Part shown: positions 4-8,794 of the stretch, one piece after another
Numbering within the stretch: position 1 is the first letter of the stretch
Layout of the letters: every line of letters starts with the position of its first letter
Virus record (IMG/VR): IMGVR_UViG_3300048914_000058
Span: 1 to 22,551 of that record
Length of the DNA: 22,551 nucleotides
Origin: a virus
Direction: 5' to 3' (one strand)
The notes under the pieces: model-generated
Databases searched by the model: none
What the model was told of the DNA's origin: nothing
Seen by the model: only the letters and a program-made list of their open reading frames with translations
Program-made: the position numbers and the translations under genes

Positions 4-390
4 TTGAAAGCAATCATTCTTGCAGGTACTGTGGCAGCGCTCTTATCCGCATGTTCATCTGAAGCAAACGTGGTATCTGAAAACCTGTCGAAGTCGGCTG
101 ATTCATTTGAAGTGCAGCGCCGTGTGGTATTTATTAATGGAATTACAGACAAATACCTGCTTGAAGTGGAAGGGCTTTGTTCACTTGGCAATAACGATAC
201 GGAAGGTCGTCTTTCCGTCACATGTAAAACAGGTCCGAACGAGTACAAGAAGCACTACCTCGGCTTGTCGGACAACGTAACATTCCTTGTAGAGCAGCTA
301 GAACCGAAGAAAGAAGACCCGTACCACTACAAGCTGATCTTCCGTCCAGAAACAATTGTCCCGGACATCGACTTGCAAACCAGCAAATAG
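4..390 (+). CDS. Phage lipoprotein, probable superinfection-exclusion type (5' end may lie outside window)
   Basis: The protein begins with a short signal peptide and a lipobox, LLSAC, with Cys17 as the expected lipidation site, so it should be exported and anchored on the outer face of the host membrane. The mature part is about 110 residues, predicted beta-rich, with a conserved-looking block (VSENLSK, then RRVVFINGITDKYLLEVEG). I recognise this block from small beta-sandwich lipoproteins of actinobacterial and other phages. Those are suspected of blocking superinfection, but the function is inferred. The start used is the TTG at position 4. The reading frame is open to the left edge, so the true start could lie upstream and no ribosome binding site is visible. 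It is the first gene here of an early operon of small proteins and is followed directly by a stem-loop repeat. Confidence 0.75.
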   Translation: MKAIILAGTVAALLSACSSEANVVSENLSKSADSFEVQRRVVFINGITDKYLLEVEGLCSLGNNDTEGRLSVTCKTGPNEYKKHYLGLSDNVTFLVEQLEPKKEDPYHYKLIFRPETIVPDIDLQTSK

Positions 391-417
391 CGCAAAACAA
401 TAATCTTGCGCGCTTAC
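389..417 (+). repeat. Intercistronic stem-loop repeat, copy 1
   Basis: The copy starts at the TAG stop of the lipoprotein gene and ends just before the GGAGG of the next gene. AGCGC at the left pairs with GCGCT at the right around an A-rich centre. It is the most divergent of the five clear copies: its 3' part reads CGCTTACC where the others read GCACTTATC. Confidence 0.7.
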
Positions 418-437
418 CCAAAAGGAGGATGAAGCAG

Positions 438-572
438 TTGCTTACTATACATGGTAAAGACTATACCGAAATTAAGACGGATAACGGGACGACGGTGTTT
501 ATCAAGCGTGAAGATTTAAAGCAGGTATCTAGCATCTTGGCGCGTATCGTGCAGGAAGAAGAAAGTAAATAG
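438..572 (+). CDS. Small early phage protein, 44 aa, unknown function
   Basis: The ORF translates to a 44-residue protein starting MLTIHGKDYTEI and ending in an acidic EEESK tail. TTG at 438 is preferred as start because it sits 9 nt after a full GGAGG (424-428). The in-frame ATG at 429 touches the GGAGG and is too close. The first half looks like a beta-hairpin (LTIHGKDYTEIKTDNGTTVFIKR in outline) and the second half like an amphipathic helix. No family is recognised. It lies between stem-loop copies 1 and 2 in a run of similarly small genes, many of which in phages are early host-takeover factors. That role is only a guess from position. Confidence 0.7.
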   Translation: MLTIHGKDYTEIKTDNGTTVFIKREDLKQVSSILARIVQEEESK

Positions 573-599
573 CGCTAAACGATAATTTGGTGCACTTAT
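571..599 (+). repeat. Intercistronic stem-loop repeat, copy 2
   Basis: The copy overlaps the TAG stop of the 44-aa gene and ends 1 nt before its downstream GGAGG. The left arm GCGCTAAA pairs with the right arm ATTTGGTGC through Watson-Crick and G-T pairs around a 4-nt loop (GATA). It is followed by the shared tail GCACTTAT. Confidence 0.75.
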
Positions 600-612
600 G
601 GGAGGGAAATGT

Positions 613-783
613 ATGGACGAAAATGAAAAGCGTGAATTGATCGGATTGAGAAAGTTCTATATCTACATGATGAATATGTATGGTCATGGTCATGAGGTAA
701 CGAACTGGCACCAAAACGGAGAATTGGAATCGTTGGACAATTTCCTTGATTCAGCAGAACAGGAGTTCAGAGAAGCGCGCTAA
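613..783 (+). CDS. Small early phage protein, 56 aa, unknown function
   Basis: The 56-residue product starts MDENEKRELIGLRKF. ATG at 613 follows GGAGGG (601-606) with 6 nt spacing. An in-frame ATG at 598 lies upstream of the binding site and would start inside the stem-loop repeat, so it is rejected. The protein is helical and acidic, with a central YMMNMYGHGHEV stretch rich in Met, His and Gly and a C-terminal helix LDNFLDSAEQEFREAR. No signal peptide or membrane segment is seen. I do not recognise a family. Its TAA stop falls inside stem-loop copy 3. Confidence 0.75.
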   Translation: MDENEKRELIGLRKFYIYMMNMYGHGHEVTNWHQNGELESLDNFLDSAEQEFREAR

Positions 784-805
784 ACGCGAATTTGGCGCAC
801 TTATC
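776..805 (+). repeat. Intercistronic stem-loop repeat, copy 3
   Basis: This copy matches the consensus best: GCGCTAAAC, loop GCGA, ATTTGGCGC, then the tail ACTTATC. The TAA of GCTAAAC is the actual stop codon of the 56-aa gene, so the repeat supplies the 3' end of that gene. GGAGG of the next gene begins 6 nt later. Confidence 0.8.
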
Positions 806-823
806 AGAAAGGAGGGAATATGG

Positions 824-973
824 TTGCCAAAAATAGTCCTCAATGAACCCGATATAAGCAAAGCAATACAACGATACCTGCAAGATAAAGGATACATCGT
901 ACAGGCGCTTCTAATAGTCCATAACGGCAAGAATAATGATTTTTTCATAATGGCTACGGTGGAAGAAGAATAA
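824..973 (+). CDS. Small early phage protein, 49 aa, unknown function
   Basis: The start is TTG at 824, placed 8 nt after GGAGG (811-815). The ATG at 820 is in another frame and stops after eight codons, so it is not used. The frame is open upstream into the previous gene, but the binding site decides the start. The product begins MPKIVLNEPDISKAIQRYL and reads as helix, then two beta-strands (GYIVQALLIV and DFFIMATVEE) joined by a NGKNN turn, ending in acidic residues. The alpha-beta-beta layout suggests a small folded domain. No family is recognised. Confidence 0.7.
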   Translation: MPKIVLNEPDISKAIQRYLQDKGYIVQALLIVHNGKNNDFFIMATVEEE

Positions 974-1005
974 AGTACGCTAAATATGGATTTTGCGCAC
1001 TTATC
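974..1005 (+). repeat. Intercistronic stem-loop repeat, copy 4
   Basis: The copy begins right after the TAA of the 49-aa gene. GTACGCTAAAT pairs with ATTTTGCGCAC around loop ATGG with two mismatches. The tail GCACTTATC leads straight into GGAGG. Confidence 0.8.
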
Positions 1006-1021
1006 GGAGGGAGGGACAGAA

Positions 1022-1189
1022 GTGGAGAAACCTGAAAAGTTGAGCAAATATTTATACGCTTTAGAGAAAAAAGCTGCACAAGTTTCGTTTAATGACTTCT
1101 TAGAAGATTGGCAAATTAGCGAACAGGAGTTTAACGAAATAGAAGCGTGGTTTAGGTCGCAAGGTATTAAAGGATACATCACACGATAA
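1022..1189 (+). CDS. Small early phage protein, 55 aa, possible HTH-like fold
   Basis: GTG at 1022 is chosen because it follows GGAGGGAGGG (1006-1015) by 6 nt. The in-frame ATG at 986 lies inside the stem-loop repeat and upstream of the binding site. The product is 55 residues: a basic helix (KPEKLSKYLYALEKKAA), then FNDFLEDWQISEQEFNEI and EAWFRSQGIK. The middle part, with 'WQISEQEFNEIEAWF', resembles the helix-turn-helix packing of small phage proteins, but it is too short to assign to a family. No catalytic motif is present. It sits between stem-loop copies 4 and 5. Confidence 0.75.
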   Translation: MEKPEKLSKYLYALEKKAAQVSFNDFLEDWQISEQEFNEIEAWFRSQGIKGYITR

Positions 1190-1221
1190 AGTGCGCAAAA
1201 CATGAGTTTGATGCACTTATC
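1190..1221 (+). repeat. Intercistronic stem-loop repeat, copy 5
   Basis: The copy starts directly after the TAA of the 55-aa gene. GTGCGCAAAAC pairs with GTTTGATGCAC around a 4-nt loop (ATGA) with a small internal mismatch. The tail GCACTTATC is intact and GGGAGGG follows within a few bases. Confidence 0.8.
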
Positions 1222-1238
1222 TAAAGGGAGGGCAATAA

Positions 1239-1427
1239 ATGAAAAAAGGGTATATTGTCCGCGAATTTAAAATGTGGGAAGGTTCGCTACATTGGGTTAT
1301 CGATACGGAAGATTGTGAGGAATGGAAAGAATTTTACGAGTGGGACGGTGCGACGATAGAACGCGTTTATAACTACGCCGAGTTACACGGCTATGAATTT
1401 AAAGACAAGATCAAGGAATGGGAGTAG
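1239..1427 (+). CDS. Small acidic early phage protein, 62 aa, unknown function
   Basis: ATG at 1239 follows GGGAGGG (1226-1232) with 6 nt spacing. The product is 62 residues, strongly acidic and unusually rich in Trp, Tyr and Glu (for example HWVIDTEDCEEWKEFYEW). Its N-terminus, KKGYIVREFKMWEG, reads as two beta-strands and its C-terminus, ATIERVYNYAELHGYEF, as a helix. Small acidic aromatic-rich proteins in phages can be nucleic-acid mimics or inhibitors, but nothing here proves that and no family is recognised. It is the last of the repeat-separated small genes before the resolvase. Confidence 0.75.
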   Translation: MKKGYIVREFKMWEGSLHWVIDTEDCEEWKEFYEWDGATIERVYNYAELHGYEFKDKIKEWE

Positions 1428-1430
1428 GGG

Positions 1431-1457
1431 AGATGCAGAAAATGAGTTTGACGAATA
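1431..1457 (+). repeat. Eroded sixth copy of the stem-loop repeat
   Basis: Between the 62-aa gene and the resolvase gene, a ~27-bp stretch keeps the ATGAGTTTGA core of copy 5 and a TGCAGAAA left part. The left arm has lost its GCGC, and the tail reads ACGAATAAA where other copies have GCACTTATC. The strong hairpin is lost. Confidence 0.5.
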
Positions 1458-1473
1458 AAAAGGAGGAAGCAGC

Positions 1474-1962
1474 ATGCGAGTTTTAGCGCTCGATCCTTCA
1501 GGTAACTGGGGAGAGAAGGAAGGCTTCGGCACAACCGGTTATGCTGTTATAGATAACGGGAATTTATTTTACTTCGGGGATATTGAAGCGAAGATGTTTA
1601 TGTCGCAAGAAGGCTACTGGTCTACAATGTGGGATTTGTTTATGGAGTTCGACCCAGAGGTTATTGTCTGCGAGTCGTTTCGGATGCGGAATGGAAACAG
1701 CCGAGCTAAAGTCGGTTCCACACTCGACACGCCACAGCTGATTGGATGGCTTAGAATGTCCGCCTACATGAAGGATATTGAATGGGTGTTCCAAGACCCT
1801 TCAGCTAAAGCAAGGTTCTCAGATGAAATACTGACTGAGACTGGAATACTGGAGAAACGCGGCAGGTCCTATTATTTTCAAGATAAGATGACGAACGACC
1901 ACATGCGGGATGCGATCCGGCACGGACTTTATTTTAATAAATATGGGAAGAAGGCGAAGTAA
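1474..1962 (+). CDS. RuvC-like Holliday junction resolvase (RNase H fold)
   Basis: This 162-residue protein has the acidic motifs of the RuvC family in order: LALDP with Asp7 and a GTTGYAVID strand; PEVIVCESF with Glu67; and DHMRDAIRHGLYF near the end, with His143 and Asp146 spaced like His/Asp of bacterial RuvC. The family binds two metal ions and cuts four-way DNA junctions symmetrically. In phages it resolves recombination and replication intermediates so concatemers can be packaged. Length is close to bacterial RuvC (~170 aa). ATG at 1474 follows AGGAGG (1461-1466) by 7 nt. It overlaps the next gene by one base (TAATG), so the two are translationally coupled. Confidence 0.85.
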   Translation: MRVLALDPSGNWGEKEGFGTTGYAVIDNGNLFYFGDIEAKMFMSQEGYWSTMWDLFMEFDPEVIVCESFRMRNGNSRAKVGSTLDTPQLIGWLRMSAYMKDIEWVFQDPSAKARFSDEILTETGILEKRGRSYYFQDKMTNDHMRDAIRHGLYFNKYGKKAK

Positions 1963-6748: not shown

Positions 6749-8794
6749 TTACTTGTAGTAACGCAGCACATGGTCAATGTACTCAGGATCGCCATAAACC
6801 TTGTAGCCGTTCTTCTGCTTTTGGTAAGTAGAGAACGCCGCCATCGCTTTACGCGGGTCCGAGTATCCGTTGTTCTTCGCCCAGTTAATAATACCCGGCC
6901 CCATGTTGTAGGCAGCAAGCGCCCATTCGACGCTTCCGTACTTCTTCACATAAGATGCCAGCATGCTTGTACCTTGATTGATACTTGCATCAGCCCCGGA
7001 ATCGTTCATACCGTTGACCTGCATTACGTTACTAGACGCTTTACCGAGCGACGACTCTTGCGTCGCTACGGCTTTGACCAGCTTGGCGTCTACGCCATAT
7101 TTAGCGGCTGCTGAGTTTATTTGGGACGAATAGTCGCCGCTTACCTTCGCCCCTTCATTAAAAGCCCCGTTACCTGAAGATGTAGGAGCGCTGCGGCTTG
7201 TGATCAGACCGTTGATGGCATTCATAATCTTGTTGTAGTTCGTAACGTCCGGGTCGTTAGCAGGAAGCGTTTGACCAGATTTCAACGTCTTCTGCTTGGA
7301 TGCAATAATGCTGGCTACCTGAGAAAGTTGCGTTTGGAGTCCGTCCAAGATAAACCGGTCGGAATCGTTTTGCAGGTTCGCTCCGGCTTGTTTGATCATT
7401 TGATTGTCGTAGTCGATCTTGTGCGAGAACTCTTGAGTGTCCAGCGTGAGCTTCGAAGCGTCCAGTTGGTTCTGCTGTGCCCACTGGGATACCTGAGCCG
7501 ATAAGCTGTCGTAGCTAAGCTGCTCTCCGGCTTTGTTCGAACGGATTTGTTCCTCCAGCTTCTTCATATCCAGTGTAGGGCGACCTTGGCTGTCATAGCC
7601 CATAATGCTTGTAAGCTGGATACCGTAATCCGACGCCAATTTATCGTAGAATTGCTTCTCGTCAGACGACAATTTATCGTAGAACTGTTTCGCTTCGACG
7701 GTCATTTTGTCGTAGTTGTACTTCGTATTCGTAGCCAGTTCGTCGTATTTGTAGCCGTTGTTCGCTGCATTATCTGCGGACTGGAAGTCATACGGAAGCG
7801 CTTGACCGATTAGCTGCGCGTAAAGCTTCGCTTGATCCATCATCGAGTTACGATTTGCGTCGGAGTACTGCTTAAAGTATTGCTGCTGTAAATCGCTTAG
7901 ACTGGTTGCGGCTTTGTCGGCAGCAGCTTGACTGAGCTTATCGCCGTAAGTACGGTTAACGTTATTAATAGCGTCAAGCGAATCAGCTTGGAGAGCTGCG
8001 AGCGATTTGTTACGCGCCAGCCCAAGCCGGGTGTTCGAGTCTTGTTCGAGTCCACTTCCAGCCAACCCCTTGTTCGCAATATTTTGTCGTGCGGACAGCC
8101 AGTTCTGGAACGATTGATCCTCCAGCTGAGATTTTGAGTCGTTGAACTTGTTGTTGATCGAATCCAGTTCGCCTTGTTGCTGCGTTGTGTACTGGTTCAT
8201 AAGTTCCTGATACTTGCGAAGCTGCTCTTGATAAGCTTTCTGCGCGTCGACGCTTGCGCTGTTCATAGTGGATTGATCTGTACCGTTCATCTGACCGAAC
8301 AGCTGCATCAGCATTTCGTTGTACGAACCTGTCATACCTGTTCCGCCGTTTGCACCTGAAGATGTACCGCCCGCGGCTTGCTGTCCCGGATTCGCGTATG
8401 TACCGCTCTTCAGATTCCCCATTTCCTGCGAGAAGACATCCGCGCTCATACTCTGTGCAGCCTTTGCTGTGTTCGGGTCCAGCTGAGAATAGTATTGTTT
8501 CGCTTGTTGCTCCGCCCAAGACTGGAGTCCCGCGTTGCCGGAGTCTGCGGCTTTCTGCCATTGTTGTTTAAGGTATAGAATCTCGTTCAGCGGGTCCTTC
8601 GGTGCGGATGCCGTTGACGGGGTAGTAGTGTTTGTAACTGGAGCAGGCGTAGTTGCTGTTGTCGTTTTTGGAGCGATTATATTAGCGCCCGCCGCTTGTA
8701 CTGTAGCCTGCGGCTGGTTCAAAACGTTTGCAGCCATAGATGCTGCTGTACCTGCAACAGTAGGCTTACTCTGCTGTTTCGTGATAATAGCCAA
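6749..8794 (-). CDS. Virion protein with C-terminal lytic transglycosylase (SLT) domain
   Basis: The start is TTG at 8794, with GGAGGT upstream. The 681-residue protein has an Ala/Thr/Pro-rich, probably disordered N-terminus (1-70), a long Gln-rich helical middle (about 150-480) and a C-terminal SLT-type domain (about 555-681). That domain carries the catalytic Glu580 in ATQESSLG, then SSNVMQVNG, then ALAAYNMGPG, the family's usual motifs. The enzyme cleaves the MurNAc-GlcNAc bond to make a 1,6-anhydro end, letting the phage pass DNA through peptidoglycan at entry. Four 11-residue repeats lie at residues 348-391. Its position just before the giant internal protein supports a role as ejection protein. 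A siphovirus tape measure is less likely, as no tail tube genes are present. Confidence 0.85.
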   Translation of the reverse strand: MAIITKQQSKPTVAGTAASMAANVLNQPQATVQAAGANIIAPKTTTATTPAPVTNTTTPSTASAPKDPLNEILYLKQQWQKAADSGNAGLQSWAEQQAKQYYSQLDPNTAKAAQSMSADVFSQEMGNLKSGTYANPGQQAAGGTSSGANGGTGMTGSYNEMLMQLFGQMNGTDQSTMNSASVDAQKAYQEQLRKYQELMNQYTTQQQGELDSINNKFNDSKSQLEDQSFQNWLSARQNIANKGLAGSGLEQDSNTRLGLARNKSLAALQADSLDAINNVNRTYGDKLSQAAADKAATSLSDLQQQYFKQYSDANRNSMMDQAKLYAQLIGQALPYDFQSADNAANNGYKYDELATNTKYNYDKMTVEAKQFYDKLSSDEKQFYDKLASDYGIQLTSIMGYDSQGRPTLDMKKLEEQIRSNKAGEQLSYDSLSAQVSQWAQQNQLDASKLTLDTQEFSHKIDYDNQMIKQAGANLQNDSDRFILDGLQTQLSQVASIIASKQKTLKSGQTLPANDPDVTNYNKIMNAINGLITSRSAPTSSGNGAFNEGAKVSGDYSSQINSAAAKYGVDAKLVKAVATQESSLGKASSNVMQVNGMNDSGADASINQGTSMLASYVKKYGSVEWALAAYNMGPGIINWAKNNGYSDPRKAMAAFSTYQKQKNGYKVYGDPEYIDHVLRYYK
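7622..7753 (-). repeat. Four tandem 33-bp (11-residue) repeats inside the transglycosylase protein
   Basis: Four consecutive 11-residue units share a Y-D-K/E-L/M core: YKYDELATNTK, YNYDKMTVEAK, QFYDKLSSDEK and QFYDKLASDYG. The last two are also close at DNA level (shared TTCTACGATAAATTG). An 11-residue period fits a hendecad coiled coil, and the DNA similarity suggests recent tandem duplication. Confidence 0.8.

Follow-up and report, generated by a model that had tools for sequence, protein, structure and literature searches.

Repeated 30-bp elements that separate small early genes in a probable Paenibacillus phage resemble Xer-type recombination sites

In Acinetobacter plasmids, accessory genes form dif modules, which are bounded by several Xer-type sites (pdif) with variable 6-bp spacers and served by the chromosomal Xer enzymes of the host; recombination needs identical or near-identical 6-bp spacers, a single spacer mismatch being tolerated by pdif sites, and it is between sites whose spacers match that single modules are replaced (PMC13141974). 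In Xer recombination, the strands are exchanged at the 6-bp centre, and in the XerS/difSL and XerH/difH systems the gene of the Xer-like recombinase adjoins its site, of which there is one per chromosome (PMC5357621). Phage DNA can carry dif-like sites for host Xer enzymes as well, as in the IMEX phages CTXphi and VGJphi, where they are used for integration into the host dif. In integrons (attC/intI), recombinase sites delimit cassettes of one gene each, which are arranged in arrays, and the recombinase gene is divergent from a nearby site. Finally, the SAS/ESAS of cluster K mycobacteriophages stand upstream of the starts of non-structural phage genes: the SAS is a 13-bp sequence (GGGATAGGAGCCC) near the starts, while the ESAS are inverted repeats with 17-bp arms and a variable spacer of 4-13 bp, which track the same gene family between phages (PMC3203893). 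A search of open-access literature found no report of Xer-site gene modules in tailed phages.

The array described here is located in a window (the whole stretch of DNA that was analysed) of 22,551 bp, which is a complete IMG/VR record and, as we infer for its host, probably belongs to a Paenibacillus phage. The same phage is represented by a 40,274-bp contig (L003, L007, L008), in which the array region is identical to that of the window and the RuvC-like protein encoded beside the array is 100% identical; this contig carries genes for a DNA polymerase, a primase/helicase-like protein, a dUTPase-like protein and an FtsK-like translocase. Capsid and polymerase of the phage show only distant kinship to sequenced phages. 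Judging from sequence comparison, we consider it fairly probable that the repeats are Xer-type core sites for a tyrosine recombinase of the Paenibacillaceae host, which would make one-gene cassettes exchangeable between phages.

The array is a part of the early operon, in which a gene of the VG64/“RDF” family is the first and a RuvC-like gene stands at the end. The repeat unit of 30 bp consists of a 12-bp arm, a 6-bp centre and a second 12-bp arm, and each intact copy sits after the stop codon of one small gene and before the Shine-Dalgarno sequence of the next one; in copies w1-w3 the stop codon of the preceding gene is inside the left arm. The features are as follows, the arm matches of w1-w5 being counted against a 24-base consensus derived from bacterial chromosomes only, and R2 being a model made from phage and host sites.

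4..390, + strand: VG64/phrog_478 family gene, first, upstream of the array (PF25682, 7e-54; phrog_478, 7e-54)
386..415, + strand: candidate site w1, AATAGCGCAAAA-CAATAA-TCTTGCGCGCTT; 20/24 arm matches; matched by R2 in L003
429..572, + strand: cassette gene 1, 47 aa, no known family; followed by w2
568..597, + strand: candidate site w2, AATAGCGCTAAA-CGATAA-TTTGGTGCACTT; 19/24
613..783, + strand: cassette gene 2, 56 aa, no known family; its TAA stop is in the left arm of w3
773..802, + strand: candidate site w3, AAGCGCGCTAAA-CGCGAA-TTTGGCGCACTT; 21/24; centre as in a1 (L086)
821..973, + strand: cassette gene 3, 50 aa, no known family
973..1002, + strand: candidate site w4, AAGTACGCTAAA-TATGGA-TTTTGCGCACTT; 22/24; centre as in a2 (L086) and j1 (L100)
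1022..1189, + strand: cassette gene 4, 55 aa; weak similarity only, to a small protein of Salmonella/Proteus phages
1189..1218, + strand: candidate site w5, AAGTGCGCAAAA-CATGAG-TTTGATGCACTT; 21/24; centre as in a3 (L086) and j2 (L100)
1239..1427, + strand: gene 5, 62 aa, no known family
1429..1458, + strand: decayed copy w6, GGAGATGCAGAA-AATGAG-TTTGACGAATAA; 11/24
1474..1962, + strand: RuvC-like gene closing the array, context and not a cassette (phrog_1981, 2.7e-14; RuvC-like phrog_159, 9.5e-4)

The start codon of the first gene lies outside the window (the gene is complete in L003), and its TAG stop is inside the left arm of w1. Its annotation as a recombination directionality factor looks doubtful because the protein is secreted-looking, with a lipoprotein-like N-terminus; at the DNA level, this gene is about 71% identical to genes of SPO1-like Bacillus phages. 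Downstream of the array, positions 1962-2306 encode a DUF3310 domain with a C-terminal zinc-finger-like CxxC...H pattern (recognised by eye), and a tandem repeat with a 33-bp unit in 2.5 copies occupies positions 7632-7715 within a reading frame of the structural region.

The first-pass annotation of this DNA had reported five clear copies and one eroded copy of the repeat, placed between stop codon and Shine-Dalgarno sequence of successive small genes, and both the positions and the placement hold. For the stem with a 4-nt loop that it described, two 12-bp arms flanking a 6-bp centre are the better reading. The covariance-model search that it proposed, run with the copies themselves, returned the five intact copies and the decayed one and no further copy in the window or in the 40.3-kb contig. 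All sites of the array are in direct orientation and both arms fit one consensus, while the five centres are all distinct (those of w1 and w2 are one base apart). The copy w6 looks like w5 after decay; it does not convince when taken by itself and belongs to the phage-copy model R1 by construction only; it is probably a remnant related to w5 and is unlikely to be functional. A role of the repeats as transcription signals was rejected, the array region having no promoter-like site.

Similar arrays were found in two other phages, L086 (43 kb; three sites, a1-a3) and L100 (a 49.5-kb prophage record; two sites, j1 and j2), in both cases in the early region between small genes. L100 is a prophage at 1.83-1.88 Mb of the 7,184,930-bp chromosome of genome G355. 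The three phages are largely different and have few genes in common overall: tail fibre and membrane protein genes are common to the window and L086, structural genes to L086 and L100, and the “RDF” gene to the window and L100. From slot to slot the centres match, with their order unchanged: CGCGAA in w3 and a1, TATGGA in w4, a2 and j1, and CATGAG in w5, a3 and j2. Equivalent sites are 77-97% identical across the phages, as against 5-40% for the 80 bp upstream, and downstream of matching sites the similarity fades past the Shine-Dalgarno sequence. When the small genes between the copies were compared with their counterparts in L086 and L100, as had been proposed at the outset, no similarity was detectable: the sites are retained and the genes are unrelated. 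The sample comprises three phages with the array in the collections searched and five comparable slot pairs, and among these collections no phage pair differs by exactly one cassette.

Pattern scans, which detect close matches only, were extended to other replicons. Apart from the phage itself, none of 38 phage loci related by DNA polymerase has a site array, and no site was found in INPHARED phages or PLSDB plasmids. The matches of a wider viral scan outside the three true phages, as far as examined, were single, mostly inside reading frames and unsupported by the models, and were rejected.

The arms had been taken as keeping their pairing under selection for RNA structure, and one may suppose a hairpin before each Shine-Dalgarno sequence that acts in mRNA processing or translation control. 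Indeed, the five window copies lie just upstream of ribosome binding sites and fold better than shuffled sequences (z from -2.2 to -2.8); however, any near-palindrome would fold, a DNA palindrome doing so as RNA anyway. The behaviour of the arms speaks against this reading. In the ten phage copies, 96 of 120 arm pairs form, compared with 96.8 +/- 1.7 when the right arms are shuffled (P = 0.76), so that the compensatory changes by which the idea was to be judged are absent between the arms, which vary independently. In w4, a1, a2 and j1, often one arm is perfect and the other has uncompensated changes; j1 of L100 does not form the hairpin and retains the centre and the right arm. Moreover, the best match elsewhere is a chromosomal locus, which in this orientation is not upstream of a Shine-Dalgarno sequence. 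The RNA-structure reading is not supported: arm shuffling and folding led us to reject a cis-acting RNA element as far as the phage copies are concerned, and we regard this explanation of the array as very unlikely. Each phage arm adheres to the half-site consensus independently of the other, as is expected if the arms are two protein half-sites.

The pattern of the phage copies, compared with 84,980 bacterial and archaeal species genomes, gave 12 matches, 11 in Paenibacillaceae and one in Neobacillus. In Paenibacillaceae, there is about one copy per chromosome of the same palindrome (AAGTGCGCAAAA-N6-TTTTGCGCACTT; chromosomal consensus GAAAGTGCGCAAAA-N6-TTTTGCGCACTTATTATAGCA), and it usually precedes a divergent tyrosine recombinase gene by 40-170 bp. 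In 11 of the 12 matched genomes, the ORF listing showed a divergent gene for a recombinase of about 305 aa with the site upstream of it, and a family-wide protein search showed that the recombinase adjoins the site in the twelfth genome (G007) too. Model R2 found one site per genome in 12/12 and sites in 44 of 396 Paenibacillaceae genomes, in essence a single copy per genome. By a hand count from printed coordinates, a recombinase orthologue with 57-100% identity to the query lies no more than about 170 bp away from at least 37 of these 44 sites. Most other genomes have more distant members of the recombinase family, about 50% identical, and the site is diverged or not recognised; some diverged chromosomal sites are perfect palindromes with altered arms (AATTGCGCGAAA, AATTGCGTATAA).

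Phage copies were the source of models R1 and R3 and contributed to R2; evidence independent of them comes from the chromosome-only consensus and the genomic context of the matches. Against this consensus of 24 bases, the five window copies score 19-22 and everything else in the window at most 15, while the maxima in 200 random windows of the same dinucleotide make-up were 14-17, with one of 19. Phage half-sites are 0-5 bases off the host consensus. The 12+6+12 layout is common to ten phage and 29 distinct chromosomal sites, and chromosomal centres have Y....R ends, likewise the phage centres (in the first 12 chromosomal matches, these two end positions were constrained by the search pattern). 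Among chromosomal sites the arms covary (P = 0.0005), as expected for a homodimeric DNA-binding enzyme. One further chromosomal site by a recombinase gene (L241:1903-1932, genome G152) has arms like those of w1 and w2 (AATAGCGCTAAA...), which suggests that the phage arms mirror different host lineages.

In two complete chromosomes (G006, G007), the site and the recombinase gene are near the replication terminus, at the flip of the coarsely sampled GC skew, with XerS nearby. A canonical dif of the B. subtilis type was absent from five Paenibacillus genomes within 3 mismatches, and a shorter pattern of this type gave matches at the control level; Rfam has nothing near the chromosomal sites.

The recombinase of about 305 aa belongs to the Pfam family Phage_integrase (2.8e-34) and is most XerC-like. 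An alignment of 39 Xer proteins shows no variation at its residues R150, H249, R252, H275 and Y284, and since the catalytic residues are thus intact, this divergent enzyme looks active. It does not reach the cut-off of any model used: 175-188 bits for XerC (TIGR02224, cut-off 335), about 92-115 for XerS (cut-off 267) and 126 for integron integrases (cut-off 265), and it is also far below the XerD cut-off. The examined genomes encode, in addition, XerS above its cut-off and a XerD-like protein by deoB or its neighbours, which was assigned via gene neighbourhood; in five Paenibacillaceae genomes, no protein exceeded the XerC cut-off. The set of a XerD-like protein, XerS and an additional XerC-like recombinase was seen in the Paenibacillaceae loci L164-L168 and L209-L238. 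The three array phages have no Xer-like recombinase according to a model that detects Xer-like proteins and not every tyrosine recombinase; therefore, the host enzyme is the natural candidate.

Both phage and chromosomal sites have the organisation of a dif-like Xer core site, with half-sites in dyad symmetry around a 6-bp centre, and the presumed cognate recombinase with intact catalytic residues is encoded by the Paenibacillaceae hosts and not by the phages. The array resembles the dif modules of Acinetobacter. As in them, genes are bounded by at least two sites for chromosomal Xer enzymes of the host, which holds here at the sequence level only, and sites with equal spacers enclose different contents: the five matching centres of the three phages have unrelated genes between them. 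Unlike the Acinetobacter modules, the phage array lacks alternating orientation, distinct XerC and XerD arms and alternating C and D modules; its sites are co-oriented, with nearly symmetric arms that fit a single, different recombinase, and they belong to early operons of tailed phages, with one small gene per unit having its own Shine-Dalgarno sequence.

The likeness to XerS/difSL and XerH/difH is limited too. The Paenibacillaceae enzyme falls well short of the cut-offs for XerC, XerD and XerS, it is encoded in genomes that have XerD-like and XerS proteins besides, and the 6-bp centre of its site lies within a near-perfect palindrome. The resemblance to SAS/ESAS noticed in the first-pass annotation stands for the layout, inverted-arm repeats before gene starts, but not for the sequence, the spacer, which is fixed at 6 bp here, or the association with genes, since the order of sites is kept while the genes change. 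In contrast to integrons, w1-w5 have no RYYYAAC/GTTRRRY core pairs (by inspection) and are 30-bp sites of the double-stranded type.

We suggest the following scheme. Two 12-bp half-sites would flank a 6-bp strand-exchange region and be recognised by the host recombinase, which is encoded beside its own single chromosomal site. The mobile unit would comprise the centre, the right arm, the Shine-Dalgarno sequence, a small ORF, the stop codon and the left arm; with a left arm that abuts or carries the stop codon and a right arm followed by the Shine-Dalgarno sequence, a swapped unit should be expressed. Sites of one phage would recombine poorly because each has its own central hexamer, which would limit deletion and keep the array stable, whereas equal hexamers in different phages would permit exchange in a given slot. 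Two phages in one cell could thus exchange a slot gene via the host recombinase, needing neither a phage recombinase nor homology of the genes. In its full form, that is, a common ordered array of mutually incompatible sites in little-related Paenibacillus phages, with hexamers as addresses by which a host Xer-like recombinase swaps single early genes slot-wise, this scheme is put forward tentatively, at somewhat below even chances. We infer each of its steps, namely binding of the phage sites by the recombinase, restriction of partners by the hexamer, and exchange. The one-base difference between the centres of w1 and w2 counts against hexamers as addresses, because pdif sites tolerated one mismatch.

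The idea that the repeats are recombination seams for shuffling small genes as cassettes, which the first-pass annotation had offered as its third option, is strongly supported in kind, the element matching a host Xer-like site and other phages keeping the sites with other genes. The seams may also be passive: general or phage homologous recombination would swap the genes, and the likeness to the host site would be a relic of origin for which no recombinase is needed. Conservation confined to the site and the Shine-Dalgarno sequence agrees with this, as short seams could suffice without a dedicated enzyme. However, passive homology accounts neither for both arms tracking the site of the host recombinase, nor for slot-specific centres combined with similar arms, nor for the Y....R centre ends common to phage and chromosome, and we consider it unlikely.

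Directly beside the chromosomal palindrome, on the recombinase strand, there is a TATAAT box, so that the palindrome overlaps a probable recombinase promoter and an operator role with self-regulation is possible there. By extension, the host recombinase could be titrated or recruited by the phage copies as a DNA-binding protein that exchanges no strands, the effect being a block of dimer resolution or control over transcription. This explanation, to which the possible self-regulation lends some credit, seems to us quite improbable: the recombinase retains all catalytic residues, the phage copies precede Shine-Dalgarno sequences in a region without a promoter-like site, titration needs neither slot-specific centres nor a site between every gene, and the distance between the recombinase gene and the site amounts to 1.4 and 5.8 kb in two genomes (G136 and G080, respectively).

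These two genomes have no second site and hence no attL/attR, and no such pair was seen at chromosomal sites. This bears on the idea that Xer is used as in IMEX phages, the phage copies being attachment sites for integration at the host site; a precedent is given by the filamentous phages that hijack XerCD at dif (PMC3025954, PMC5357621). We hold this idea to be extremely unlikely, as each phage has several sites dividing its early genes rather than one attP, and the L100 prophage has a large serine integrase gene of its own. In G355, 1.65 Mb separate this prophage from the host site, whose centre differs from the prophage centres.

Recombination at Xer-type sites by the host enzyme, our preferred reading, touches upon an old question of phage evolution, namely how single genes are exchanged precisely; a host-enzyme route with address-like centres would, if true, be a concrete and testable answer. 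Small early phage genes often act against host functions or defences and change quickly between phages. If the reading is true, it extends the dif-module idea from plasmids to tailed-phage genomes, points to a little-characterised Xer system in Paenibacillaceae, and offers natural orthogonal recombination sites together with a handle for finding fast-exchanged phage genes.

Two of the three array phages encode FtsK/SpoIIIE-like translocases (L003:6840-8201, - strand; L086:5399-6664, + strand). Because cellular FtsK activates Xer recombination at dif, a link of the phage translocases to the arrays is conceivable; however, the L100 prophage showed no such gene, and FtsK/SpoIIIE-like genes are common in phages of Gram-positive bacteria. 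Repeats of other kinds were noticed in further phages. In the related phage L011, a promoter-like sequence (CCGTTGACATTAAATATT) is repeated at 1008, 3142 and 14628, and the early region of Paenibacillus phage API480 (L012) has four repeats with a AAGTGTNNACACTT-like palindrome (41408, 42705, 43512 and 44190), which are possibly repressor operators.
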